Both the position numbers and the translations under genes were made by a program. DNA of 64,000 nt from Candidatus Binatia bacterium (GTDB lineage: Bacteria; Desulfobacterota; Binatia; Bin18). This document shows positions 2,054 to 8,455 of this stretch, piece after piece. The stretch lies in NCBI GenBank assembly GCA_022826945.1, contig JAJDTY010000044.1, positions 1 to 64,000 on the forward strand. The letters run 5' to 3'. Below the pieces are notes generated by a model that searched no databases, was not told the origin of the DNA, and worked only from the letters and a program-made list of their open reading frames with translations. Positions within the stretch are counted from its first letter, which is position 1, and every line of letters starts with the position of its first letter.

Positions 2054-3139
2054 TCACGCATGACGAAACTCTTGAATGGACGTGGCCGACCGGCCGTCTT
2101 TGAGGGCGATCTGGCGGGTCACGGAGCGGGTCATAGCCCCGAACGTGGGCATCCAGCACGAGTGGCGGCCCGGACCGCCGACGACAAGAACCATGAGCCG
2201 TTCCGGCTTGCGAATTAACGGGATGGCATCGTCGTCGGGAAAGGCGTCATCCGGGGTAAAGCCCATACCGATCATACCGCCCGCCTCCCATTGTTCGCGC
2301 GGCACCCTGGCATGCTCAAAAACATAGGCACGGATGTCGTCTTTTGAGATGCCGTCTCGGGCCAGGATATCGGCGTGCTCGGGTCCAAGCGCGAGAATCG
2401 GTTCACCAAAGGCGTAGGCATTATTCGAGCCCATACCGGCCATGGTGCTGGCGATGGTCGTCAGAATCCCCGGCGCGGCACTGCTGATATGGTCGTTGAT
2501 ATTATGCGGCCCTTCCGCTCCGCACACCGTGACCGTGCTGGTCTCGGCCGCAAATCCGCGTTCGACGTGTAGCGGTCCCCAGGGGTTTTCCTCTTCGTTC
2601 TCGGCAATACAATAGCTGTACTTGGAGGGCTGGCCCTGGGTTGAGCGGTCCAGCATGCCCGGCGTTCCGCCCCCGACGTTCAGCAAGACCAGACGGACCG
2701 CTCGTCCGATTGTGGCGTTTGGCCGCCAGCCCTGACCCAAGGCGTTATAGCGCGAGTTGACGCCGATTTCCGCAGCAATCGGGCCGTTCAGAATCAGCAG
2801 TGGCGCGCAGGGGTGGGTTGTGCTCTGCACCCCATACAGATTGAACGGCCCTTCGAGCAGTGCTTCGATTGCCGCAATAATGACCGGAAAGTATTCAGGC
2901 ACACAGCCGGCCATGACCGCGTTCACGGCTAATTTTTCCAGGGTAGCCGTGCCGTATTTGGGCGGTATCGGCCCCAGGACGTCTTGGGGAGCACGGTCCG
3001 TCCAGGCCAGCATCTTTTCCACCCGCTCTTGTGTAGGCGGGATGATCGGGAGACCGTCTGTCCAGCCTTGGTCGTAAAACCAATCGTTGACGGCTTCGAG
3101 AGAGTCGTCCAGGGAGATTCTGTCTGATTGGAAATCCAT
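2054..3139 (-). CDS. Conserved companion of UGSC selenoprotein, function unknown
   Basis: A 361-residue soluble protein with no signal peptide or membrane segment. The N-terminal part carries WFYDQGWTDGLPIIPPT (about residues 20-36), and the C-terminal part carries a glycine- and cysteine-containing motif GGPGRHSCWMPTFG (about 321-334). Several other cysteines (CVPEYF, HPCAPL, YCIAE, VCGAEG) could act as thiol partners. I do not recognise a characterised family. It lies 52 bases downstream of the UGSC selenoprotein gene on the same strand, so a shared operon and a joint redox reaction are likely. That is inference from position. The start ATG has GGGAG 10 bases upstream. Confidence 0.7.
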   Translation of the reverse strand: MDFQSDRISLDDSLEAVNDWFYDQGWTDGLPIIPPTQERVEKMLAWTDRAPQDVLGPIPPKYGTATLEKLAVNAVMAGCVPEYFPVIIAAIEALLEGPFNLYGVQSTTHPCAPLLILNGPIAAEIGVNSRYNALGQGWRPNATIGRAVRLVLLNVGGGTPGMLDRSTQGQPSKYSYCIAENEEENPWGPLHVERGFAAETSTVTVCGAEGPHNINDHISSAAPGILTTIASTMAGMGSNNAYAFGEPILALGPEHADILARDGISKDDIRAYVFEHARVPREQWEAGGMIGMGFTPDDAFPDDDAIPLIRKPERLMVLVVGGPGRHSCWMPTFGAMTRSVTRQIALKDGRSATSIQEFRHA

Positions 3140-3191: not shown

Positions 3192-3791
3192 TTACGCTGA
3201 CACCCGCTCGATCTTTTTCTCCATGGGCTTGAGAAACCGATCTCGATACGCGTCGGCCAACTGCTCAGCCGGCTGGGTCAGAATGGCCAGAATTTCATCC
3301 ACTACCGCCGCAGCTTTGGCCTGCACCACCTGTGGCGTATTGCCGGCCAGGGGATGGGGAATCACGGCGATGGGCACATCACTCATGCCCAGGGTGCGGG
3401 ACTCGGCCCGGCCGAGCGGAGCAAACTCGTCACTGCAAATAACAGCGGTCGGAACGCCCTGTTTTTCCAGTTCAATGGTGTCGTGGAGACCCCACGACGT
3501 GCACGAGCCTCAATCGCCTATGGCCACGACAACCACATCACAGGTTGACAGGCGGGCCATAACCTCCTTGGGGGCGCCGAGCGAGGCATTCTTTTCACCC
3601 CTGATAACGGCGAAGTCTCCGCAGCGTTCGTGCAGCAGCGCTTCCACCTGTTCGAGCAGCAGACCGGCGTTGGCCTTCCGGTTATTCAGAAAGCCGATGG
3701 TTTTCCCACGCAGACTGCCCTCTCGTCGAGCAAGCGGCAGATCACCGGCTTGCGCTTCTCCAACCGGACTGAGGACTTCAATCTGTCCCAT
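3192..3791 (-). CDS. UGSC-family selenoprotein (in-frame TGA read as selenocysteine)
   Basis: A 199-residue protein whose frame is interrupted once, by TGA at 3510-3512 (residue 94). The TGA is followed by GSC, giving the motif GD-U-GSCTSWG, the signature of UGSC-family (seleno)proteins, in which non-seleno homologues carry CGSC. Both sides continue one domain: upstream LRGKTIGFLNNRKAN and CDVVVVAIGD, downstream AVICSDEFAPLGR and IPHPLAGN. A hairpin matching a bacterial SECIS follows the TGA. An ordinary gene caller would split this into two fragments (3510-3797 and 3192-3386). The start is ATG at 3791, with GGGAGG 5 bases upstream; a GTG two codons earlier overlaps that site. The chemistry is unknown; Sec with a nearby Cys suggests a redox or selenenylsulfide mechanism. 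No selA, selB or selC is in the window. Confidence 0.85.
3480..3498 (-). promoter_or_regulatory. Putative SECIS hairpin
   Basis: On the minus strand: perfect 7-bp arms GTCGTGG/CCACGAC closing a GGTCT loop. The loop begins exactly 18 bases after the TGA codon (3510-3512). The E. coli fdhF SECIS, as I recall it, also has a GGUCU apical loop 18 bases after UGA, where SelB contacts the loop G and U. The hairpin lies inside the coding region, as bacterial SECIS elements do. Confidence 0.8.
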
Positions 3792-3883
3792 ACGCACCTC
3801 CCTTGCCTTTCGCTATATAGTCCAACCCTCTTGCCCGTGCAATGGAACGCCGGGTAGAGTTTCGGCCACCAGGTAATGAAGCC

Positions 3884-5089: not shown

Positions 5090-5869
5090 TCAGAACTGAA
5101 CCGAAAACCCCTCGCGTTCGTCGTTCTCTTTGTCAATCACGGACGTGCGGGCGGAAGAATAGTTTCCGGCCGGATAGTAGAGAAAGCCGGACGCGCTCTG
5201 GCCGGGCTCAATGGTCATATCCTGGAGCGCGCTGCCCCCGCCCGGAGAGGAGACCGGAGCAACCCGCCCGCCACCTTCGGGCACCAGAAAAATCTTGCTG
5301 GCCTCTATTGCATAGGGTCGGGGCGTGTTGTTCAGGACCGTCACTCGCACGGGCAAAATCCCGCTCGCCTGCATATCAGAGCCCAGAACGTTCTGGGATT
5401 CAAAACTGTTGAGCGGCACAATGGTCAGTTGGAGGGTGCCGGTTTCGGGGTTCGCGGTTTGATACGCCTCGCGCCGCTGGACCATCTGATACGTCATGGG
5501 AAAGCTGTTCACAAAATGGTGGGGACGCTCGGCCGCCCCGATCAGCGACGGCACATTGACCGCATTCCGGGCGTCGATGGTCGCGCTGCTCTCGGTACAC
5601 GTAATAGTGACCACGCCATCGGTCGCACCTTCTTTGGTGGCCGAGATGCGCCCAACCTGCCCCGGCCGTGCCAGGTTGTATTCGGCGATAGTGTAGCCCA
5701 TGGTCTGGACAGATTTGTAGACCAGTCGATTCGCCTCTTCACAGGAACTTGCGATCAGCTTGGGCTTTTCCCGCACCACCCGAGGCGGCGTCTTGGGTGC
5801 GGCACAACTGACGATAAAAACCGAGAGGGCACACACAGTCAGGTAAGTGGGACGAACGCTCATCTTCAT
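5090..5869 (-). CDS. Lipoprotein of unknown function
   Basis: A 259-residue lipoprotein. The signal peptide MKMSVRPTYLTVCALSVF ends in lipobox IVSC, with the lipid-bearing Cys at residue 22. The mature part holds a lone pair of cysteines (SCEEAN and TITCTE), which could form a disulfide, an alpha/beta region resembling small outer-membrane lipoprotein domains, and a beta-rich C-terminal half (VRVTVLNNTPRPYAIEASKI) resembling an Ig-like fold. I recognise no named family. ATG at 5869 has AAGGAG 8 bases upstream. It is divergent from the nitroreductase cassette. Confidence 0.7.
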   Translation of the reverse strand: MKMSVRPTYLTVCALSVFIVSCAAPKTPPRVVREKPKLIASSCEEANRLVYKSVQTMGYTIAEYNLARPGQVGRISATKEGATDGVVTITCTESSATIDARNAVNVPSLIGAAERPHHFVNSFPMTYQMVQRREAYQTANPETGTLQLTIVPLNSFESQNVLGSDMQASGILPVRVTVLNNTPRPYAIEASKIFLVPEGGGRVAPVSSPGGGSALQDMTIEPGQSASGFLYYPAGNYSSARTSVIDKENDEREGFSVQF

Positions 5870-6041
5870 GGATATTGCTCCTTACAGTCTTGTCTGGTTG
5901 GCTGGAATCCTACCACAGCGTCGGGGGGAGATCGACTGGAAGAGTCCTCATTCCCACCCTTCCGGCAAGTCAGAAAAGTCTGTACACTCCCGCCTGTCAC
6001 GTGCTGCGCACAACGCAGCCTATCTTTTGGAGGACAGGTCG

Positions 6042-6830
6042 GTGGAATTCAAAGAAGTTGTTGGTCGTAGACGTTCGATTCGGTACTTCTTGCCGTGGCG
6101 TCCGGTGGAACGGGACAAAGTCCAGACTATTCTTGAGGCGGCGAGGTTGGCGAGCCGGGCCGGGAACGCCGACTTTGCGCGAGCGATTGTGGTCGAGCGG
6201 GATGCCCTGTCAAAGGCCGACCTTGAGTCGCTGACACTGCCGGTGAACGCTGGCATGATCGAAATGGCGCCCGTCCATATCTACTGGTGGGGCGACCTCA
6301 AGGCATTTGCCCGCGATATGCCCTCCCGAGCGGCGGAGCAGGTCGACATGGGCATCCTCAATATCAGTCATGGCTGGACGCATACCTTCATCAACGAAGT
6401 CGCCTACCCACAAGTCGTCCAGGCCTTCAGTTCTGACGATGTCCTCTGCGCCAAGGTGACGGGCTGTGAAGCGGGTCTGGCCATCGCCCAGGCCCTCCTT
6501 GCCGCAGTCGACGAAGGACTCGGGACCATGTTGTGTACCTATCCCGAAGAACCCGCCCGCCAGGTGCTTGGGGTGCCCGATTCCTGGACCTCGTTGTGGG
6601 TCCAGTTTGTCGGTTATCCGGCAGAGAGCTGGGAAGCCGGCGGCCAACGCCCCCGTCCTCCGCTGGGTGAGCTGTTCCATGAGGGGAAATACGGCCAGCC
6701 GTTCCGGGGTACGGAGGAAGGAGCAGCGCGGCTGCGGGCAGCAAAAATGCTGCAAGACCCGGCACCCTTCTCGTGGAGGCGAGAAGAAGTCCGGGCGGTG
6801 AGCCGGATGCTGGGTTTGCCGGAAGAATAG
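6042..6830 (+). CDS. Nitroreductase-family protein, copy A
   Basis: A 262-residue FMN-type nitroreductase fold. The N-terminus VEFKEVVGRRRSIRYFLPW is the usual RRSIRxF phosphate-binding start; the end AGLAIAQALLAAVDEGLGTML and VQFVGYP matches the family C-terminus. GTG at 6042 is chosen because GGAGG lies at 6029-6033 and because copy B starts at the equivalent residue. The frame is open back to 5847, but the upstream part is not conserved in copy B. The loop that reads PGNLQPWRAIVV in copy B is AGNADFARAIVV here, so flavin or substrate contacts may differ. An insert (about residues 85-145) is shared with copy B only. Confidence 0.75.
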   Translation: MEFKEVVGRRRSIRYFLPWRPVERDKVQTILEAARLASRAGNADFARAIVVERDALSKADLESLTLPVNAGMIEMAPVHIYWWGDLKAFARDMPSRAAEQVDMGILNISHGWTHTFINEVAYPQVVQAFSSDDVLCAKVTGCEAGLAIAQALLAAVDEGLGTMLCTYPEEPARQVLGVPDSWTSLWVQFVGYPAESWEAGGQRPRPPLGELFHEGKYGQPFRGTEEGAARLRAAKMLQDPAPFSWRREEVRAVSRMLGLPEE

Positions 6831-6860: not shown

Positions 6861-7205
6861 ATGCCGATGGATATCGAGAACACCAAAACGGTTCAGACGT
6901 GGCTGCAGGGCCTGGAAGACCAGTCTGGCGTGTCCCGCAACGAGGGATTGCAGCGCGTGGCGGTCTTACAAGATTTTTGCGCTCTGGTGGAAAAAGAGCC
7001 GGATCAGATCATTGATGAGTGCTTGCGCGAGGTGGAGGGCGGGAAAAGAATTCGCGCCAAGGGCCGGCGTTTTTATGCAGACAAGATCACCGAGTTTGAA
7101 TCTGGTATTGGCGGGGGCGCGGGTGAAAAGCGGCAGAAGGGGAATTATATCCGCAGCTTTTTGATCCATAACGGTGTGCTCTTACAAACGAGCCCACTGT
7201 CATAA
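6861..7205 (+). CDS. Small helical protein A, resembles integrase N-terminal SAM-like domain
   Basis: A 114-residue all-helical protein homologous to the protein at 8108. Shared blocks are VQxW, LQxFC with K/E-PD-xxI, and a C-terminal NYIRSFLIHNGVLL. This layout (FC...EPDQII...NxIRSFxxHNGV) resembles the core-binding SAM-like domain at the N-terminus of tyrosine recombinases, but no catalytic domain follows. It sits 30 bases after nitroreductase A and 21 before nitroreductase B, so it is probably co-translated with them. Function unknown; a stand-alone DNA- or protein-binding role is only a guess. Confidence 0.6.
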   Translation: MPMDIENTKTVQTWLQGLEDQSGVSRNEGLQRVAVLQDFCALVEKEPDQIIDECLREVEGGKRIRAKGRRFYADKITEFESGIGGGAGEKRQKGNYIRSFLIHNGVLLQTSPLS

Positions 7206-7226: not shown

Positions 7227-8060
7227 ATGGATTTTCTCGAAGTTGTTGGTTCACGACGCAGCATTCGGATTTTCAAGCCCTGGGAGCAGGTCGAAAAGGA
7301 GAAGATACAACGGATTCTCGAAGTCGTCCGTTTGACTACCTGTCCGGGTAACCTTCAGCCGTGGCGCGCCATTGTTGTTGAACGCGACAAGCTGTCAAAA
7401 GAAGATCAGGAAACCCTACTGGCCTGTGACAACTATCAGGGGGCACACGTCAACGCACCAGTCTGGATCTACTGGTTTGCCGATGTGGAGGGTTCTACCG
7501 CAGACACCTTTCGGACCCGGGTCCACGACCTGGTAGACCTCGGAGCCCTGCCGACGTTCTACGGCTGGACGCATGAGACGATTGATTCGGCCATTGTCAA
7601 AGGCGAGACCGCGCCCGAAGGCATGCCGGCCATCCACTCGCTCATTCATGGGCTCCCGCGTGAGGCAGCGGAAGCCGTGGCCCGGCAGGAGACGGTCGGA
7701 GCGTGTGCGGTCGCCGTCCTGGCCGCCGTCAACGAAGGACTGGGCACCTGCCTGCACATGGCCGCCTCGGCCGAGAAAACTCCCGATCTCCACGCCGTCC
7801 TGAACGCGCCCGAGGGCTGGGTGCCGGTCTGGTGTCAATTAGTTGGTTATCCGGCGGAGTCTCCGGATGGAGGCGGTCAACGACCGCGTCTGCCCTTTGA
7901 AACGCTCTATTATGACGGCAGTTATGGCAAGCCTTTTGAGCGCGATTCTCAGGTTGTCGAAGAGTTGAAAGAAGAAAAACTGATCCAGGAACAAATGCCC
8001 AAGCCCGGGCGTTTTGAAGAACTCAAACATCTGGCCCGCATGCTGGGTTTTCCGCTGTAG
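7227..8060 (+). CDS. Nitroreductase-family protein, copy B
   Basis: A 277-residue nitroreductase-fold flavoprotein. MDFLEVVGSRRSIRIFKPW is followed by the classical FMN loop CPGNLQPWRAIVVERD; the C-terminus has ETVGACAVAVLAAVNEGLGT and CQLVGYPAESPDGG. ATG at 7227 has AAGGAGGA 6-8 bases upstream. It shares the whole length, including the GWTH-containing insert, with copy A. Such enzymes reduce nitro, quinone or enone substrates with NAD(P)H, and some act on F420 or remove halogens. The substrate is not evident. Confidence 0.8.
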   Translation: MDFLEVVGSRRSIRIFKPWEQVEKEKIQRILEVVRLTTCPGNLQPWRAIVVERDKLSKEDQETLLACDNYQGAHVNAPVWIYWFADVEGSTADTFRTRVHDLVDLGALPTFYGWTHETIDSAIVKGETAPEGMPAIHSLIHGLPREAAEAVARQETVGACAVAVLAAVNEGLGTCLHMAASAEKTPDLHAVLNAPEGWVPVWCQLVGYPAESPDGGGQRPRLPFETLYYDGSYGKPFERDSQVVEELKEEKLIQEQMPKPGRFEELKHLARMLGFPL

Positions 8061-8107: not shown

Positions 8108-8455
8108 ATGGAGCAAAATACTGCAACCATGAACGACCTCCAATCTTACCCCAGTGTCCAAAAGTGGATCGAGAACGTCAATCGCTTTTACAATCTCAGC
8201 GATGAGGAGTGGAACAGCCGCATTCAGACATTGGCTGATTTCTGCCGGTCCGAGGAAAAGGACCCGGATACGGTTATTGCCGAGGCCCTCGCGGACAGGG
8301 GAGAGAAGGTTGACTTTATTCGGCGGCTTAAGAGATTCGTCAAAACCCAGACCTCGAATCCACGCGTTGGACACGATTTGGAGAACATCGTCCGCTCGTT
8401 CTTTATTCATAACGGCGCCCGGGTGGTGACCCGTCCGTATCGTGCCGACTCCTAA
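8108..8455 (+). CDS. Small helical protein B, resembles integrase N-terminal SAM-like domain
   Basis: A 115-residue paralogue of the 6861 protein: VQKWIENV, LADFCRSEEKDPDTVIAEAL and a conserved end NIVRSFFIHNGARV. No recombinase catalytic residues follow. It is the last gene of the duplicated cassette, 47 bases after nitroreductase B. An ATG seven codons downstream is an alternative start. The repeated pairing with a nitroreductase suggests a linked function, but nothing in the sequence names it. Confidence 0.6.
   Translation: MEQNTATMNDLQSYPSVQKWIENVNRFYNLSDEEWNSRIQTLADFCRSEEKDPDTVIAEALADRGEKVDFIRRLKRFVKTQTSNPRVGHDLENIVRSFFIHNGARVVTRPYRADS

Follow-up and report, generated by a model that had tools for sequence, protein, structure and literature searches.

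The window analysed here, a stretch of 64,000 nucleotides from Candidatus Binatia bacterium, contains a further member of a known selenoprotein family (UGSC). What is added is the reassignment of this family, from profile comparison, to the selenoprotein B superfamily, together with a nearly constant partner protein encoded beside it. Most likely, judged on sequence, UGSC supplies the selenol in a bond-cleaving reductase of two subunits, the other of which does not resemble GrdE/PrdA, the pyruvoyl subunit. With this kinship and this partner an "unknown redox protein" becomes a protein with a testable function. The features of the locus are the following:

3192 to 3791, minus strand: UGSC-family selenoprotein gene, 199 residues, Sec94 (NF041046 and PF24696 matches; AlphaFold2 model)
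3510 to 3512, minus strand: in-frame TGA, codon 94, motif U-G-S-C (sequence; paralogues; external sites)
3480 to 3498, minus strand: bacterial SECIS hairpin GTCGTGG-GGTCT-CCACGAC (fold, covariation, published bSECIS constraints)
3792 to 3804, minus strand: likely ribosome-binding site AAGGGAGGTGCGT ahead of ATG 3791 (inferred from reading the sequence)
2054 to 3139, minus strand: partner protein, 361 residues, no Pfam/NCBIfam family (adjacency, co-occurrence, model)

The frame runs from ATG 3791 to TAA 3192 and contains a single internal stop, TGA (3512-3510), followed by Gly-Ser-Cys. The two open reading frame fragments, 3510-3797 (starting from an upstream GTG) and 3192-3386, form the halves of this 199-residue frame; the sequence-only reading had joined them in this way and was correct in the coordinates and in residue number 94. 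It had also placed the protein in the UGSC family, and the frame lies above both curated cut-offs: PF24696 spans the TGA with E 1.1e-51 and 175.9 bits against a Pfam cut-off of 25 (residues 7-175, numbered from GTG 3797), and NF041046 spans it with 146.6 bits against an NCBIfam cut-off of 125. The description of the gene as hidden stands in that a standard caller splits the frame, but curated Pfam and NCBIfam models exist and publications on the family go back at least to 2008 (PMC2398784, accessible text). The available part of a 2026 review is in line with the remark that the chemistry of the family is undescribed. The host genome (G000; 4.71 Mb, 86 contigs, completeness 90%, contamination 5%) contains seven UGSC genes including this one, each with exactly one TGA, in the same alignment column.

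The profile comparisons show UGSC, as far as homology can be read from alignments, to be a short relative of the selenocysteine-bearing C-terminal part of selenoprotein B (GrdB and its kin), a subunit of the glycine, betaine, sarcosine and D-proline reductases. With hhalign the UGSC profile matched the GrdB C-terminus with a probability of 96.6% (E 5.3e-10), selenocysteine being aligned on selenocysteine; the values were 95.9% for full-length GrdB (the GrdB alignment comprises five sequences only) and 93.3% for a mixed PrdB-like set. The controls gave 0.1% (partner profile) and 1.8% (UGSC against GrdE). These alignments derive from 31 PF07355 matches read past the TGA, five full-length GrdB and 24 C-terminal-only sequences being aligned and L133 and L138 excluded. 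The alignment covers UGSC residues 84-176 only, the N-terminal half having no shown counterpart, and the common blocks are UGxC, E-x-x-GIP and HPLG. Single-sequence matches were weaker: TIGR01917 matched the window protein with E 3e-4 and 19.7 bits, far under its cut-off of 602.2. Among 60 UGSC members the matches below E 0.01 were to TIGR01917 (17 members, best 3.7e-6), TIGR01918 (9) and TIGR04483 (1), the eight families matched including two unrelated ones close to the noise, a caspase family (3, best 0.0013) and MshA (1, 0.0072).

Matches to PF07355 were identified in 23 of 42 genomes and most of them end at model positions 345-347 of 347, at or just before the TGA; the Pfam GRDB model seems to stop at the selenocysteine, leaving the catalytic C-terminal part uncovered. 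Three PrdB/GrdB-like genes of the host genome are likewise interrupted by an in-frame TGA, with PVC or PLC as the next residues (L114, C83:114092; L115, C54:16274; L116, C29:2750), although this genome has no GrdE/PrdA match.

The AlphaFold2 model of UGSC (alignment of 60, pLDDT 94.2) is a five-strand alpha/beta structure with strands at 31-36, 61-66, 86-92, 115-120 and 141-144, helices between them and Sec94 just past the third strand. A Foldseek search of the PDB gave 1769 matches, 25 of them reaching E 0.001. Rank 1 went to a GTPase-Q complex chain, not a flavodoxin; ranks 2-11 are azoreductases (or carry an older name for them), of flavodoxin fold, with E 6e-5 to 2e-4. Further flavodoxin-like and Rossmann-type chains come after these among the best 50 of the 1769, and query-normalised TM scores in these 50 are modest (0.27-0.47). 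Searching solved structures by sequence with the UGSC, partner and GrdB alignments gave nothing convincing (best E 0.0024, 0.0041 and 0.0067); the best row for each alignment is a designed protein (LHD101B4 and the origami triangle). The model thus predicts a flavodoxin-like fold, contrary to the thioredoxin-like fold to which UGSC is assigned in PMC2398784 (accessible text).

This assignment bears on the reading of UGSC as a thioredoxin-fold thiol oxidoreductase or peroxidase with UxxC as a disulfide-type redox centre. The motif itself is in its favour, as is the assumption made for UGSC in the literature, and a sentence in the available part of the 2026 review can be read likewise. The five-stranded model is a confident one, no thioredoxin occurs among its best 50 of 1769 PDB matches, and no thioredoxin family was matched in Pfam or NCBIfam, the eight families matched by the 60 members including GrdB ones; a thioredoxin fold is therefore unsupported and we regard this reading as unlikely. 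A peroxidase role with another fold is possible. If the flavodoxin-like fold is true, the UGSC family leaves the thioredoxin-fold group of the 2008 survey.

Azoreductases bind FMN. Their position at ranks 2-11, at the E-values given, and the occurrence of two nitroreductase-family genes close by in the window speak for a Rossmann- or flavodoxin-type oxidoreductase in which the selenocysteine assists a bound flavin or nucleotide, azoreductase-like. This too is improbable: the TM scores concerned are modest (0.37-0.45) and the fold class is a common one, Pfam and NCBIfam gave no match to a family that binds flavin, the nitroreductase genes lie on the opposite strand, and Nitroreductase is absent among the 25 families listed, of 93, in co-directional neighbours.

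The two nitroreductase-family genes follow one another on the plus strand (5847-6830 and 7227-8060), each trailed by a gene for a protein of about 115 residues (6861-7205 and 8108-8455, plus strand). The small proteins are alike by eye, and the two pairs look like a cassette duplication. Twenty genes scanned around the host's own paralogues include amidohydrolases, a luciferase-like monooxygenase, an enoyl-CoA hydratase, BKACE and a MaoC protein, alongside MscS, an MFS transporter, ankyrin repeats and further genes, which suggests at most a catabolism of organic acids in general. TctC receptors were identified in 15 of 122 co-directional neighbours and, as a control, in 8 among 122 further genes from these loci (drawn at random from 257; each tally lists 25 families), and since the control genes match too this enrichment was discarded. 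No single pathway emerges from the gene neighbourhood.

The reading of UGSC as one subunit of a two-part reductase draws on the gene that accompanies it. In the host genome a member of the partner family adjoins each UGSC gene (7/7). Searching named genome contigs with a profile of the partner confirmed at least 584 relatives, the best 80 being kept as loci. Viral contigs gave no match. Within these best 80 a UGSC match lies at most 2 kb from the partner on the same strand in 73, UGSC coming first in 66 and the partner in 7, with a median gap between the matched regions of 88 bases (largest 1484). Of the seven partner loci without UGSC, the partner gene starts at a contig end in L044 and L076 and stops 180 bases short of one in L036; no UGSC match was present in the DNA around it in L078, L102, L105 and L112. 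The two proteins are fused in 23 of the 77 UGSC frames from these loci, in frames of 527-587 residues with the TGA inside. The accessible text of PMC2398784 reports UGSC fused to a further domain, "Unknown_1", which may correspond to the partner family.

In a phylum sample UGSC was identified in 22 of 198 genomes with 55 matches (47 with one TGA, six without a stop, one with two TGA, and one with a TGA and two other stops). The partner was present in all 22 UGSC-positive genomes and in none of 20 UGSC-negative ones, the latter being those listed of 176 negatives and not a fresh draw. The divergence of UGSC correlates with that of the partner (r 0.64, 53 pairs, 0 of 2000 permutations as high), also within the host's own seven paralogous pairs (r 0.84, 27 of 5040 permutations), where species history cannot account for it. 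From pairing, fusion and co-inheritance we infer a two-subunit enzyme: the two proteins would work together, probably as a physical complex.

Some loci depart from the simple pair. Two consecutive partner-family matches lie behind one UGSC gene in L049, L084, L091 and L107, and in the Poribacteria loci L102, L105 and L112 the partner match is in two pieces within one frame. Genome G033, of the same phylum, has 16 UGSC and 24 partner matches, its UGSC frames having 567-637 residues and four of them no stop. The host genome has an eighth partner gene (L151, C22:17740-18774, minus strand), 96.4% identical to that of the window; since its contig ends there, a UGSC gene lying upstream would be lost, and it is either a recent duplicate or derived from a second strain in the assembly.

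At E 0.1 the window's partner has no match in Pfam or NCBIfam, and the seven partner members of the host genome gave nothing convincing (best 0.062 and 0.016, one member each). Its profile comparison with GrdE gave 0.2, and on this and the lack of a convincing family match a GrdE/PrdA homologue was rejected; the host genome contains no match to that family (PF09338). With no GrdE/PrdA in the genome and a partner unrelated to GrdE, the substrate-activation step of these enzymes cannot be transferred. The partner model (pLDDT 94.8) found no PDB match at E 0.001. Class I fumarases head its Foldseek list (E 1.8e-3), and of 60 members all have cysteine C79 and at least 90% have C177, both of which would suit an iron-sulfur hydratase akin to these fumarases with UGSC as its redox or repair subunit. 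The structural match has a TM score of 0.27 and an rmsd of 17 and the profile comparison with seven fumarases from these genomes gave 0.3%, which does not support a class I fumarase relative and makes such a hydratase very improbable.

We consider it very probable from the following comparisons that the TGA is read as selenocysteine. The genes that the sequence-only reading had proposed to look for were all found in the host genome above their cut-offs: selA (603.7 bits), selB (384.9), selD (309.2) and tRNA-Sec (70.7), with selA and tRNA-Sec about 240 bases apart on contig C29. The selD gene (L032 1349-3643, contig C17) is one long frame of the cysteine form, MRCGGCGSK. Read by eye, its N-terminal part resembles an NADH dehydrogenase and looks like an Ndh-SelD fusion, a type mentioned in the accessible text of PMC2398784. 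In the phylum sample selA was present in all 21 genomes with a TGA-type UGSC and absent from the one with cysteine forms only; as 18 of the 20 UGSC-negative genomes carry it too, selA is a weak predictor of UGSC.

The expected exchange of selenocysteine and cysteine at residue 94 was also observed. In 79 external UGSC matches from the best 80 of at least 584 loci (those above 60 bits; three weaker ones of 41-58 bits were dropped) the site is TGA in 74, TGC in 3 and TGT in 2, with no other codon. The motif, x being selenocysteine or cysteine, is xGSC in 65, xGGC in 6, xGAC in 5 and xGSS in 3. The last three (L087, L098 and L093) have serine in place of the second cysteine, so that Cys97 is not strictly needed. 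A tree of 60 UGSC proteins requires three changes between selenocysteine and cysteine, each of them forced by well-supported branches, with the bootstrap not settled. Measured along the tree, the closest row to that of the window is L034, a cysteine form from Candidatus Binatia with 52% identity. In this gene (L034:135-659) six of the seven SECIS stem pairs are kept and the loop GU is absent, which looks like a recent change from selenocysteine to cysteine.

The hairpin behind the TGA has a stem of 7 bp and a 5-nt loop with G in first position, lies with its loop 18 nt from the UGA and has a folding energy of -13.2 kcal/mol in a stretch of 36 nt. With the T of the TGA as position 1, the stem pairs positions 15-21 with 27-33 and the loop GU is at 23-24. 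It satisfies all bSECIS constraints given in the available part of PMC13188914 (loop 3-9 nt with G in its first two positions, stem 4-16 bp, distance from the UGA 16-37 nt, MFE at most -7.5). The loop GU is present in 76 of 80 selenocysteine genes (these 80 being all 7 of the host and 73 external ones out of 74, the remaining one having too little DNA for this reading) and in none of 5 cysteine genes. Four selenocysteine genes lack it, namely L056:9559, L082 (where a run of N stands), L087 and L098, and in the last two the TGA may no longer be decoded. In 64 distinct selenocysteine stretches 89.7% of cells are paired; 500 synonymous recodings average 66.8% and never exceed 73.7%. In 76 distinct sequences the figure is 92.1%, with changes on both sides in six of the seven pairs, and none of 500 shuffles attained any of five measures. 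Versions of the hairpin slid along the alignment reached no more than 57.9% pairing, and their covariation score went no higher than 0.110, where the true position has 0.193; one slid version has more further pair types (12 against 11). That the gene is a pseudogene, or a cysteine codon misread as TGA, would fit its being broken in two by a standard caller, yet this is practically ruled out by the same TGA in seven paralogues and 74 of 79 relatives (from the best 80 of at least 584 loci), by the distribution of the loop GU, by the compensatory changes in the hairpin and by the machinery in the genome.

For the two-part reductase the following course is proposed by analogy. The partner would bind and polarise a small substrate; the Sec94 selenolate, placed just past the third strand of the flavodoxin-like fold, would attack it and break a bond; the seleno-adduct would be resolved by Cys97 as a selenenylsulfide, and a cellular dithiol would reduce the latter. 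Precedents are the C-N cleavage of glycine and D-proline reductase (PMC10298544) and the C-F cleavage proposed for a GrdB-like protein with a pyruvoyl-less partner (PMC10838667), both as described in the accessible parts of these papers. That the window gene encodes a selenoprotein with GrdB kinship, a neighbour-encoded partner and a bond-cleaving mechanism at Sec94 is a prediction to which we give slightly better than even chances. The seven pairs of the host are mostly well diverged, which suggests different substrates. The broader proposal, that UGSC and its partner form a third, pyruvoyl-free class of selenoprotein-B-type reductases next to the glycine and D-proline types, spread over many phyla, largely aerobic ones among them, and diversified inside individual genomes (such as the host and G033) for bond cleavage in different organic substrates, we hold tentatively, at a little under even chances. 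Neither the link to GrdB nor the partner rule was found in the accessible parts of PMC2398784, PMC13188914, PMC9312934, PMC9402790, PMC1088965, PMC5029168, PMC10838667 and PMC10298544; most subscription papers and preprints lay outside this literature search and priority is not established.

Compared with known systems, the window gene is like the rest of the UGSC family (NF041046/PF24696), with selenocysteine at the defining motif and nothing different in the gene itself. GrdB (PF07355/TIGR01917) has a homologous selenocysteine region, aligned selenocysteine on selenocysteine, and belongs to a two-part enzyme as well, but it has about 430 residues including an N-terminal part, whereas the window UGSC has 199 and its partner is unlike GrdE. 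D-proline reductase (PrdB/PrdA) is similar in combining a short selenocysteine subunit carrying UxxC with a second subunit, and differs in that the UGSC partner is by profile not of the GrdE/PrdA family (PF09338). In FarB/FarE the GrdB-like FarB is proposed to cleave the C-F bond of fluoroacetate, and FarE is a GrdE homologue without the pyruvoyl-forming cysteines (PMC10838667, accessible text). The UGSC partner is not such a homologue; by description, the two systems are alike in joining a GrdB-like selenocysteine protein to a partner without pyruvoyl.
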